From Ensifer sesbaniae (GTDB lineage: Bacteria; Pseudomonadota; Alphaproteobacteria; Rhizobiales; Rhizobiaceae), in assembly GCF_013283665.1 (NCBI RefSeq), contig NZ_JABEKU010000001.1, forward strand, positions 3,231,137 to 3,295,136: a stretch of DNA of 64,000 nucleotides, written 5' to 3'. The position numbers and the translations under genes were made by a program. The stretch's first letter is position 1, and each line of letters opens with the position of its first letter. Positions 2,250 to 60,710 of this stretch are shown in pieces. The notes beneath the pieces are model-generated. The model searched no databases and was not told the DNA's origin. It saw only the letters and a list, made by a program, of their open reading frames with translations.

Positions 2250-3339
2250 GTCCTGTGGCGGGCAAGGCTACGACGTCGGCGGCGCGCACGGCAAGCGGCA
2301 CGATCTCACCCTCGCGCACGCTTGCCGATTGCGGCAGATGAGCGACTAGGGCTCGGGTATCCGTGGCGCATGGCTGCAGATGGCAGCGATAATGCGTGCC
2401 GAAGAAGGCGCTGCCCGCAACGCGCGCTTCGCCGAGCGTCACGGTCGGCCCTTCCGCCCGATCGTCAGCGCGGAAATGCTCCGGACGGATGGTGAGCGTG
2501 ATGCGGTCGCCGGCCTTCGGCGCGGATGCAGTGAAATTATCAGCCGGAAGCGCCAGGCTGCCGAGCGCGGTTTCGACCTTGGCGGAACTCGCATCCGCCG
2601 CCGCGACGCGCCCCGAAACGAAATTGACCTCGCCCATGAATCCCGCCGAAAACAGCGAGCGCGGCCGCATGTAGATCTGCGACGGCGGACCGAAATCCTC
2701 GATCCGCCCCTGGTTCATCACCACGATGCGGTCGGCGATCGCCATCGCCTCTTCCTGGTCGTGAGTGACGTGCACGAAGGTCGTGCCGACGCGCTTCTGG
2801 ATCGCCTTCAGCTCGTCCTGCATCTGGCGGCGGAGTTTCAGGTCCAGCGCGCCGAGCGGCTCGTCGAGAAGCAGCACGTCGGGATCGACGGCAAGCGCGC
2901 GGGCAAGCGCCACGCGCTGGCGCTGACCGCCGGAAAGCTCGTGCGGCCTCTTGCCGGCGGACGCCTTCAGCCCGACGAGATCGAGGAAACCGAGCGCCTT
3001 CTCGTCACGCTCGGCCCTGGCAAGGCCGCGCATCCTGAGCCCGAAGCCGACATTGTCGACGAGGCGCATATGCGGAAACAGCGCATAGTCCTGGAACATC
3101 GTCGTCGTCGGGCGCTTCGACGGAACAACGTAGGTCATGTCCTGCCCGCCGATCGTTACGCGACCGGAAGTCGGCGACAGGAAGCCGCCGAGGATCGAGA
3201 GCAACGTGGTCTTGCCGCAGCCGGAAGGTCCGAGCAGCACGATGAATTCGCCGGCGCGGATATCGAGCGAGACCGCGTCGAGGGCCGTGAAGGCACCGAA
3301 GATCTTGCTGACGGTTTCGATCGAGACGGGAGCGGTCAT
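2242..3339 (-). CDS. ABC transporter ATP-binding protein, PotA-like
   Basis: ATPase subunit (365 aa) of a polyamine-type (PotABCD family) importer. It has Walker A GPSGCGKTT at about residues 37-45, the ABC signature LSGGQRQR near 134, Walker B LLLDEP near 157, and a C-terminal extension of about 120 residues of the TOBE type found in this class. The ATG overlaps the stop of the upstream permease by four bases, so the genes are translationally coupled. Spermidine/putrescine specificity is inferred from family resemblance and from nearby gamma-glutamyl-polyamine-type catabolic genes; related transporters also carry other small cations. Confidence 0.9.
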   Translation of the reverse strand: MTAPVSIETVSKIFGAFTALDAVSLDIRAGEFIVLLGPSGCGKTTLLSILGGFLSPTSGRVTIGGQDMTYVVPSKRPTTTMFQDYALFPHMRLVDNVGFGLRMRGLARAERDEKALGFLDLVGLKASAGKRPHELSGGQRQRVALARALAVDPDVLLLDEPLGALDLKLRRQMQDELKAIQKRVGTTFVHVTHDQEEAMAIADRIVVMNQGRIEDFGPPSQIYMRPRSLFSAGFMGEVNFVSGRVAAADASSAKVETALGSLALPADNFTASAPKAGDRITLTIRPEHFRADDRAEGPTVTLGEARVAGSAFFGTHYRCHLQPCATDTRALVAHLPQSASVREGEIVPLAVRAADVVALPATGHA

Positions 3340-5121: not shown

Positions 5122-6219
5122 TTACTGCTGCAGCATTTCGGTCCAGGCATCCTGGAACTGCTGGTCGAGTTCGGCCGACGGGATCGGGTAAAGCTGCGTC
5201 TTCTTCAGATATTCCGCCTGCTGGTCGAAGCGCAGCGCCGCCTTCTGCTGGTCGGTGAGGTGCTCGTCCGCCCTGGCATTGGCCGGCATCGCCCAGTAGC
5301 AGGAAGAGGTGGCAAGCCGTGCCTGGCCCTCGGGGCTCAGGATGTACTGCACGAATTTCAGCGCCAGGTCCTGCTTGGTCGAATCCTTCATCACGCCGAT
5401 CGACTGCGCCCAGCGTACCGCGCCCTGTTCGGGAATGGTCCAGTCGAGGCTCGGCTTGTCGGCGGAGAGAACGGCGGTGATCCACTCGCCGCCGCCGACG
5501 AGAATGTCGACCTCGCCGGTCGCAAGCGCCGTCTGCGAGGAGACGACGTCGCTCACCTGCTTCGACACGGCGCGCATCGCCGCCAGCTTTTCCTTGATCG
5601 CCGGCATGTCCGCTTCGCTGAGTTCGGCGGTCTTCTTGCCGAGCCCGAGGCCGACGAGACCGATCATCGGCAGGTAATAATCATAGAGCGCGATGCGGCC
5701 CTTGTACTTGTCCGACCAGATGATCGACAGGTCCTGCATGTCCTTCGGGTCGACCTTGGTCTTGTCGTAGGAAATCGTGTTGTAGCCGAACTTCTCGGTG
5801 ACGGCGTAGATCTTGCCGTCCTTGGTGTTGTTCGCCTCCATGCGCACTTCCGGGAAGATGTCGGCGGTCGGCAGCCCATCTGCCGGCATTTCGGCGAGCA
5901 GGTCGAGGTCGATAGCACGATGAACGTCGACGCCATCGATGACGAGCACATCCCAGTCGCCCGGCTGCGATTGGTCGAGGATCGAGAGCCCCGCCCCGGT
6001 GCCCTCATAGACCTTGACGTTCACCTTGACGTCGTTGGCCTTCTCGAATGGTTCCAGCAGTACCGGATCGGTGTGGTCGCACCAGACGAGCGCGTTGAGC
6101 TCTTCCTGGGCAAAAGCCGGCGCGGGCGCTGCGGCCGTCGACAGCGCGGCGATGGCGATGGCCGCCGTGGAGGAGAAAAAACGGCGCAGGCGCGCACCGT
6201 CACGAACTGACTGCATCAT
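5122..6219 (-). CDS. periplasmic polyamine-type substrate-binding protein
   Basis: PotD/PotF-type extracellular binding protein, 365 aa. A signal peptide runs from an arginine-containing N-terminus through a hydrophobic stretch to APAFA, with cleavage expected before QEELN near residue 37. The mature part resembles the family (LVWCDHTDPVLLEPFEKAN, KDMQDLSIIWSDKYKGRIA). I place the start at the ATGATG at 6219/6216 after GAGGG; the longer reading frame would put 21 unsuitable residues in front of the signal peptide. It is the first gene of the operon and is transcribed away from the TetR gene, whose product is the likely regulator. Confidence 0.9.
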   Translation of the reverse strand: MMQSVRDGARLRRFFSSTAAIAIAALSTAAAPAPAFAQEELNALVWCDHTDPVLLEPFEKANDVKVNVKVYEGTGAGLSILDQSQPGDWDVLVIDGVDVHRAIDLDLLAEMPADGLPTADIFPEVRMEANNTKDGKIYAVTEKFGYNTISYDKTKVDPKDMQDLSIIWSDKYKGRIALYDYYLPMIGLVGLGLGKKTAELSEADMPAIKEKLAAMRAVSKQVSDVVSSQTALATGEVDILVGGGEWITAVLSADKPSLDWTIPEQGAVRWAQSIGVMKDSTKQDLALKFVQYILSPEGQARLATSSCYWAMPANARADEHLTDQQKAALRFDQQAEYLKKTQLYPIPSAELDQQFQDAWTEMLQQ

Positions 6220-31853: not shown

Positions 31854-31880
31854 AGCCCGCAGGCTTTCACCTTGCGGGCT
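31854..31880 (-). terminator. terminator downstream of rrn/tRNA-fMet remnant
   Basis: Stem AGCCCGCA/TGCGGGCT with an 11-base loop, followed on the minus strand by TTTCGAC. It lies 20 bases beyond the 3' end of the initiator-tRNA fragment, where a normal rrn operon would terminate. It also lies 54 bases after the tetR stop on the other strand. Confidence 0.65.
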
Positions 31881-31899
31881 CTATGTATGTATTGGACTT

Positions 31900-31952
31900 T
31901 GGTTGCGGGGGCAGGATTTGAACCTGCGGCCTTCAGGTTATGAGCCTGACGA
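31900..31952 (-). pseudogene. 3' fragment of initiator tRNA (tRNA-fMet, CAT), 53 nt
   Basis: On the minus strand, TCGTCAGGCTCATAACCTG (anticodon arm with CAT) runs on through the T-arm GCAGGTTCAAATCCTGC to the acceptor end CCCGCAACCA. This is the 3' part of an alphaproteobacterial initiator tRNA, the last gene of the usual 16S-23S-5S-fMet operon. The first ~24 nt (5' acceptor strand and most of the D-arm) are missing, so it cannot fold as a tRNA. It is joined directly to the 5' end of 16S rRNA. Confidence 0.88.
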
Positions 31953-31989
31953 CAGCGTTCGTTCTGAGCCAGGATCAAACTCTCAAGTT
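31953..31989 (-). pseudogene. 5' stub of 16S rRNA, about 37 nt
   Basis: Reading the minus strand, CAACTTGAGAGTTTGATCCT and then GGCTCAGAACGAACGCTG are the universal first bases of 16S rRNA. Where an intact rhizobial gene continues GCGGCAGGCTTAAC, this copy switches to initiator-tRNA sequence. Everything from 16S position ~37 through 23S and 5S to the middle of tRNA-fMet is absent. Confidence 0.9.
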
Positions 31990-32277
31990 GAGAATTCAAT
32001 CATTGGCTTAAATCACGTCTCTGAATCGACGAGAACTCACACCCATCTTCCTCAACCATCCTACACGCTTCACAGCGCGCCGTATGGCCGGCTCAGCTCC
32101 CGTCGATCCAAAGGATCGGCGAAAGGCATCTGAGCCCAGAAAATGTAGTGTTGTCTCTTGATAAACGTGACCGCCAAAGTCTCTTTCCGAAGAACCCCTT
32201 AAGGTTCCTCGCGAGCTCCGCCGCCCACGTTTCTCTTTCTCATTATTCAATTGTCAAAAAACCGGTCAGTGATCGGG
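31990..32277 (-). other. rRNA operon leader region
   Basis: About 290 bases between the promoter and the 16S stub on the minus strand, with no reading frame of its own. It includes GACAATTGAATAATGAGAAA and GAGAAACGTGGGCGG, the kind of leader/antitermination sequence found ahead of rhizobial 16S genes. Its intactness shows the remnant was a complete rrn operon until recently, or still is one in the living genome. Confidence 0.65.
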
Positions 32278-32307
32278 CTTATAGACCCACCCCCTCTCAC
32301 ACGTCAA
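32278..32307 (-). promoter_or_regulatory. rRNA-type promoter
   Basis: Minus strand: -35 TTGACG (32302-32307) and -10 TATAAG (32278-32283) with an 18-base spacer, preceded by an A/T-rich stretch (TTTTTTTGAAAATGTC region, about 32308-32345) that resembles an UP element. Strength and position fit an rrn P1-type promoter. Confidence 0.75.
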
Positions 32308-32463
32308 CAGACATTTTCAAAAAAACTTCAAAATTCGACAACATCCTGATTCTAAAGAATAATTTCGACTGTTGATAATCTCTCTCGATTTTGAGGACCC
32401 GGGACGCCGGCTTTTGACAAGCAAATCACCGGCTCGCGCCATCTCGTCATCGTCCAGCACGAC

Positions 32464-33408
32464 TTACGGCCACGACGGGCGTCGAGGGCCCGTCATCACT
32501 GGCGTCGCTTCACGGGTGAAATACCCCCGGTTCTCCCGGGCGGTCTGCATCAGGAACTCCCGTACCGCCTTCACCCGTGGCACCGCCACCAGATCCCGAT
32601 GGCAGACCATCCAATAGGTGCGCTTGAGCTCGATCTCCTCCGGCAGGACGATTTCAAGGTCCGGCTCTTCCCGGGCCATGAAGTGCGGCAGCACACAGAG
32701 ACCGAGCCCCTGCCGCACCGCTTTCAGCTGCGTCAAAATACTCGAACTCTGGAAATGCGCCCGCAACCCCGGCTGCAGTTCCCCGAGATAGTCGAGACCG
32801 GGCGCGAAGATCATGTCCTCGATATAGCCGACGAAACGGTGCGCCGCGAGATCGTTGCGACCTTTGATCGGCGCATGCTTCGCAAGGTAGCTGCGTGCGC
32901 CGTAGACATGCAGCGTATAGGGGGTCAGCACCTCGGAATGGTAAGGGCCGGCTTTCGGCGCCGTCAGCGCCACCTGGATGTCCGCTTCCTTGCGCGATAG
33001 CGACATGATCTGCTGGATCGCCACCAGTTCCAACGAGACATTCGGGTAGCTCGCCGCAAAATCCGCCAGCCGGTCGGCCAGGAAGAAGTTACCGAAACCT
33101 TCGAGCGTGCTCAGCCTGACGACGCCGCGCTGCGCCGTCAGGCCGTCATTGATGTCGAGCTGCAATTGTTCGGTCTCGCGTTCGATGCGCTCGGCGGTTT
33201 CGATGAAGCGCTGCCCCATGCTGGTCAACACGTAACCGCGCGGATTGCGCTCGAACAGTTTCACCTTGAGGGCGAACTCCAGGCGATCGATACGCCGGGA
33301 AACGGTGGCGTGGCTGGTCCTCAACCGCCGCGCCGCCGTCGACAGTTGCCCGGTGCGGGCCACCGCGAGAAAGAACTGCAGATCGTCCCAGGTGAAATTC
33401 GGATTCAT
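32464..33408 (-). CDS. LysR-family transcriptional regulator
   Basis: A 314-aa LysR regulator. The N-terminal HTH (about residues 1-60) reads WDDLQFFLAVARTGQLSTAARRL then SHATVSRRIDRLE. The effector domain spans about 90-300. The start is the ATG at 33408 after GGGGAG; a GTG two codons upstream is also open. It lies divergent from, and 228 bases away from, the branched-chain-type ABC operon, which is its most likely target. It also lies just upstream of the rrn remnant, transcribed in the same direction. Confidence 0.9.
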   Translation of the reverse strand: MNPNFTWDDLQFFLAVARTGQLSTAARRLRTSHATVSRRIDRLEFALKVKLFERNPRGYVLTSMGQRFIETAERIERETEQLQLDINDGLTAQRGVVRLSTLEGFGNFFLADRLADFAASYPNVSLELVAIQQIMSLSRKEADIQVALTAPKAGPYHSEVLTPYTLHVYGARSYLAKHAPIKGRNDLAAHRFVGYIEDMIFAPGLDYLGELQPGLRAHFQSSSILTQLKAVRQGLGLCVLPHFMAREEPDLEIVLPEEIELKRTYWMVCHRDLVAVPRVKAVREFLMQTARENRGYFTREATPVMTGPRRPSWP

Positions 33409-33636
33409 CGCCACTCCCCATCTGTTCGAAAATGAACAGATCCTGTTTGCAATTTACGGTTCGGGCCGCTTGCATCCAAGCGTTTTTTTCCGGATTGTAA
33501 CGACCAGAGCCGACAACTGAGGAGCTTGTCTGGCCAAATATGAACAGAACGAAATGAACGATCCGGCATCGCCAACTGGCGCGCCGGAACCCGCGCGTAT
33601 TTTCACGCGACGGCTACGTCTCTGGAGGAGGACAAG

Positions 33637-60404: not shown

Positions 60405-60633
60405 ATCTGGATCAGGTCTCTGATGAAGGTCTCAAGGGGAGCGCCGGCTTTCCTCCCGCCAGCGCCCGCCTTGCTTAGCATTCGGAAGACCTGAAAGACC
60501 AGCCCCATCCGGTGACCTGAAGCGAGGATCGGACGGTGCGCACGCAAGGGGCGGCTGTCTCGCATTTCCGGGCGCTGCCACGCAAAAACACTTGGCGAAA
60601 ACCTCATGCTTTTGTATGGGTGCTATCCGAGTG

Positions 60634-60710
60634 GTCCCGTAGCTCAGCAGGATAGAGCACCAGATTCCTAATCTGGGGGTCGCGCGTTCGAATCGCGCCG
60701 GGATCACCAT
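60634..60710 (+). tRNA. tRNA-Arg (anticodon CCT)
   Basis: 77-nt cloverleaf: acceptor GGTCCCG/CGGGATC with discriminator A and encoded CCA, D-arm AGCTCAGCAGGATAGAGC, anticodon arm CCAGA-TTCCTAA-TCTGG giving anticodon CCT (reads AGG), and T-arm GCGCGTTCGAATCGCGC. Complete and functional in appearance. LysR debris begins about 45 bases downstream. Confidence 0.95.

Follow-up and report, generated by a model that had tools for sequence, protein, structure and literature searches.

The apparent stump of an rRNA (rrn) operon in the DNA stretch analysed here is, judging from sequence comparisons, almost certainly an assembly artefact in which the ends of two different rrn operons have been joined, and not a real feature. 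This stretch, called the window, spans 64,000 nucleotides (C1:3231137-3295136) of the 6.90-Mb Ensifer sesbaniae assembly, which comprises five contigs and is designated G000. Very probably, the window skips the bodies of the two operons (rrnA and rrnB) as well as about 435 kb that lie between them and that were left on a separate scaffold. Because the junction is almost certainly an assembly error, there is little ground for expecting a gene for a short chimeric RNA at this location.

Composition of the locus

When read on the minus strand, the locus consists of a LysR gene, an rrn promoter, a leader, the start of 16S rRNA and the 3′ part of tRNA-fMet, followed by a TetR gene. Its parts, with the evidence used for each, are as follows.

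32464..33414, minus strand: LysR-type regulator gene, adjoining one rrn operon (rrnA) on the 5′ side; Pfam LysR_substrate and HTH_1
32307-32302, minus strand: rrn promoter −35 element TTGACG, read from the letters
32283-32278, minus strand: rrn promoter −10 element TATAAG, read from the letters
32265..32463, minus strand: end of piece A, the putative rrnA upstream region and promoter, ending at 32265; exact 55-nt blocks
31953..32264, minus strand: piece X, a probable 312-nt scrap holding rrn leader (from CGGTTTTTTGAC) and about 38 nt of 16S; S. chiapasense match and leader distances
31900..31952, minus strand: start of piece B, the last 53 nt of the tRNA-fMet assigned to the second operon (rrnB); copies in C1 and C3
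31222..31800, plus strand: TetR-type regulator gene, the 3′ neighbour of rrnB; Pfam TetR_N

The original prediction had described the promoter elements, a 16S start and the last 53 nt of tRNA-fMet on the minus strand, and the letters bear out all three. The 16S start reads GAGAGTTTGATC from 31984 and runs to 31953, and a terminator-like hairpin can be recognized by eye after the tRNA-fMet part. Neither Rfam at its gathering threshold (rRNA) nor ARAGORN (tRNA) makes a call at the junction, as expected because only fragments are located there. Rfam searches of the window at the same threshold reveal no 16S, 23S or 5S rRNA between the promoter and tRNA-fMet, and so the locus lacks the content of a functional rrn operon. 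The sole tRNA called in the window is a tRNA-Arg (anticodon CCT) at 60633-60709 on the plus strand.

Breakpoints and contig ends

Searching the same genome with the 561-nt locus as query yields four further matches, all of them partial. Two are rrn promoter regions (C3:441651-441705 and C2:2073905-2073959), each followed by exactly 100 N. A third, at C3:6029, is a 3′ part of tRNA-fMet that begins directly after 100 N, and the fourth, at C1:713, belongs to a full-length tRNA-fMet that follows 5S rRNA close to the beginning of C1. Together with those in the window, the promoter ends and the tRNA ends number three each, suggesting that three operons were broken. The N runs in the 29 loci of this genome that were checked measure 100 nt or are parts of such gaps at the edge of the locus.

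Both breakpoints of the apparent stump coincide with contig ends located elsewhere in the same assembly. The tRNA break at 31952 is the same base at which scaffold C3 restarts after its 100 N, and the leader break falls at 32265, the final base of the C2 rrn-promoter contig ahead of its N gap. Contigs that adjoin in a de Bruijn graph share exact sequence of one constant length, set by the overlap, and here that length is 55 nt. The 55 nt ending at 32265 are identical to C2:2073905-2073959 and the 55 nt ending at 32271 are identical to C3:441651-441705. In the tRNA block, the window matches C1 exactly over 55 nt and C3 over 58 nt, and C1 and C3 carry the same sequence over the first 55 nt of piece B. 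Likewise, a 23S rRNA query finds one full copy at C3:1-3000 plus a 55-nt end at C1:1-55, where C1:1-55 is identical to C3:2946-3000 over exactly 55 nt. In total, the exact shared length is 55 nt in four comparisons, with exceptions of 58 nt (tRNA block, C3) and 49 nt, which is all that the C3 and C2 promoter ends have in common. This last value, though not itself 55, fits a three-way merge.

No match to a bacterial 16S model was detected in this genome, which is weak evidence of absence because the same search was positive in just nine of 14 control genomes and because closed relatives have N blocks next to 16S.

These observations point to a particular route to the artefact. The assembly would have been built from a de Bruijn graph whose overlaps measured 55 nt, a kind of assembler that we infer from the shared blocks, and the near-identical rrn operons would have broken into repeat contigs. 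Later scaffold joining would then have placed 100-N gaps at the three other rrn ends, and at this location would have butted three pieces together without N: the rrnA 5′ flank and promoter (to 32265), the scrap at 32264-31953, and the rrnB 3′ flank (from 31952). The step that produced a gap-free join is likewise conjectural. Two features count against an artefact, namely that the join has no N, unlike the three other rrn ends, and that the start and end points of piece X are not accounted for by the 55-mer alone.

Another gap-free boundary is present at C3:3000|3001, where the 23S contig, ending in the 55-mer common to C1:1-55, abuts an insertion-sequence-like stretch (the L028:2946-5928 region) without N. 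This stretch is bounded by inverted repeats (3003-3025 and 5903-5925, 74% complementary) and includes a Mutator-family transposase frame interrupted by a second, DDE-type transposase frame. The boundary is probably another gap-free misjoin, with a true insertion as the alternative.

The leader join

The leader had originally been described as intact, with a length of approximately 290 bases, and this description does not hold. The leader motif follows TATAAG at a distance of 22 nt in the window, versus 137-152 nt in the nine relatives' loci in which both elements are readable, where three spellings of the motif were accepted and L009, L010, L012, L013, L016 and L017 were left uncounted as second copies of named loci. 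About 115-130 nt of leader present in relatives are therefore absent from the window, and the gap begins at 32265|32264. Nineteen loci from relatives contain the exact 18-nt promoter end, of which 18 belong to the set of 27 Ensifer/Sinorhizobium loci (L032-L058) and one is L154 of S. chiapasense; in all 19, CGAG or ACGAG comes next. The other nine of the 27 loci have no exact copy of this 18-mer and were left out of the leader distances. A match to the rrn leader of S. chiapasense (93.9%), whose rrn is complete, begins exactly at 32264. Given this cut in the leader and the break in tRNA-fMet, three pieces appear to abut: flank A, the 312-nt scrap X and flank B.

The leaders of the relatives are of some interest in their own right. 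Between the promoter and a TTTTTTGACAATTG-like motif they carry a variable stretch of approximately 115-130 nt (e.g. L154:6852-7284; n = 9 readable), which opens with a conserved GAGGGCGGCGGC.

The 16S/tRNA join and the possibility of a genuine deletion

The 16S and tRNA sequences had been proposed to look alike at the breakpoint, and this proposal stands in part: eight of the first 10 positions agree, but there is no exact micro-homology. The junction 10-mer, with up to two mismatches allowed, occurs at 65 of 63,990 plus-strand positions of the window and at none of 2,890 in the 23S contig. No comparable overlap was seen by eye at the leader join. Some assemblers close gaps using inexact overlaps of about 10 nt. 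Recombination at near-homologous sites was considered on the basis of this likeness, which is suggestive, but an inexact assembler overlap fits equally well.

If the deletion were nevertheless genuine, unequal recombination would have left a strain-specific rrn stub driven by its promoter, which would produce a chimeric RNA of roughly 420 nt composed of leader, 16S and the 3′ part of tRNA-fMet. The letters do include a promoter and the terminator-like hairpin, and the partial likeness at the 16S/tRNA join would suit such an event. However, chance would have had to place breaks at exact contig ends known from elsewhere in the assembly, and to do so twice. A second loss of about 115-130 nt in the leader would be needed as well, and the C3 segment of roughly 435 kb would have to have been lost or relocated. 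Moreover, the junction is absent from the other genomes searched, although N blocks near 16S weaken those searches. We therefore regard a genuine deletion as very improbable.

The flanks in related genomes

Of the 80 loci returned for the LysR flank, the analysis covered the 27 Ensifer/Sinorhizobium ones (L032-L058). In 25 of these, the contig ends 94-673 nt past LysR. Locus L056 continues from LysR through the leader into an ordinary 16S, and in S. psoraleae (L058) the LysR relative is interrupted by a block of 6,698 N, after which comes a 3′ part of tRNA-fMet. Two closed genomes carry rRNA operon parts beside LysR, which are 23S, 5S and tRNA-fMet in G007, and part of 23S, 5S and tRNA-fMet in G001; the 16S side reads N in both, over 2,500 nt and 5,000 nt, respectively. 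With the LysR query, G006 and G014 were negative and G009 gave a weak match only. In S. fredii USDA 205 (L047:10934-20933), in contrast to the remaining Sinorhizobium loci examined, the contig extends a further 10 kb past the LysR relative, and no rRNA match occurs there.

On the opposite side, TetR comes after the tRNA-fMet that ends an rrn operon in four of five closed relatives (G001, G006, G009 and G014), and the TetR query gave only weak matches in G007. Both flanks are readable in one closed relative only, G001, where they adjoin different rrn copies: the operon beside TetR lies at C1:2.79 Mb and the one beside LysR at C1:3.30 Mb, 0.51 Mb apart. Thus, in that genome the LysR and TetR flanks belong to two operons. 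Partial evidence from the four further closed relatives agrees, with the TetR side represented by G006, G009 and G014 and the LysR side by G007. The presence of rrn operons at these flanks in closed relatives, like the position of the breakpoints on contig ends, speaks against the original suggestion of a decayed rrn locus formed by recombination and producing a chimeric RNA. The other option offered at the time, a repeat collapse in the assembly, was right in kind. However, the event is larger than a local collapse, with the 5′ flank of one operon joined to the 3′ flank of another.

The segment between the two operons

In the five closed relatives, the two corresponding tRNA-fMet copies are on the same strand and are 420-506 kb apart. 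Three probes of about 8 kb each, taken from C3 of the E. sesbaniae assembly (6-442 kb), were placed in these genomes. The probe adjoining the C3 promoter end maps beside rrnB, on its 5′ side, in all five, and the middle probe maps between the two operons in all five. The probe adjoining the C3 tRNA end maps beside rrnA, on its 3′ side, in four of the five, with G007 as the exception, and this probe also matches other contigs strongly in G006, G007 and G014. Because the three probes map there in relatives, C3:6029-441705 (about 435 kb) is placed by synteny between the LysR and TetR flanks.

The assembly itself has LysR and TetR adjacent and C3 separate, an arrangement that could also be real if rrnA and rrnB had recombined and excised the DNA between them. 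C3 would then be a separate replicon, a single intact rrn operon would reside between LysR and TetR, and only the stub would reflect collapse. Homologous recombination between direct rrn copies can have this outcome. However, all three C3 probes lie between the operons in four closed relatives, as do two of the three in G007, and the breaks of C3 are contig breaks at rrn repeats, for which a repeat misjoin alone gives the same picture. A true excision of this kind is accordingly rated highly unlikely. Under the preferred reading of a misjoin between two operons, each of the two places most likely carries a complete rrn operon in the cell, and the C3 segment lies between these operons, an arrangement that for this strain is extrapolated from its relatives.

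Distribution of the junction

A pattern representing the junction, with up to three mismatches permitted, was found in one of 394 genomes of the family and in one of 16 genomes of the genus, and in both cases this was the E. sesbaniae genome itself. A deletion common to relatives was thus not found, within a search that is limited by N blocks near 16S. Among 72,556 plasmid records, none covers 80% of the 100-nt junction, and 209 match a part of it. A conserved short RNA was also considered and was ruled out on the grounds that the junction is present in this genome only, with the reservation that a hidden copy is possible in the N blocks beside 16S, which weaken arguments from absence in general.

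Comparison with known systems and implications

The loss of rRNA by repeat collapse in an Illumina assembly, relative to ONT and hybrid assemblies, has been reported (PMC13028912). The present case resembles that description in that the assembly contains fewer of the multi-copy rRNA operons than the cell. It differs in that unlike flanks are also joined without N, such that the product looks like a continuous gene fusion. According to a study of S. fredii NGR234, the chromosomal rrn order is 16S, tRNA-Ile, tRNA-Ala, 23S, 5S and tRNA-Met, and the three rrn operons differ mostly in their promoter and terminator regions (PMC6381291). Differences of this type agree with the flank-specific rrn ends observed here; unlike NGR234, however, the window has only the ends of two such operons. 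The sections of these two papers that were consulted contain no description of the G000 genome.

By synteny, the join would hide two rrn operons together with about 435 kb of chromosomal sequence, and conclusions on gene order should not be drawn across 31.9-32.3 kb of the window. More broadly, this locus serves as a caution that scaffold joins made without N at rRNA repeats can imitate gene fusions and deletions.
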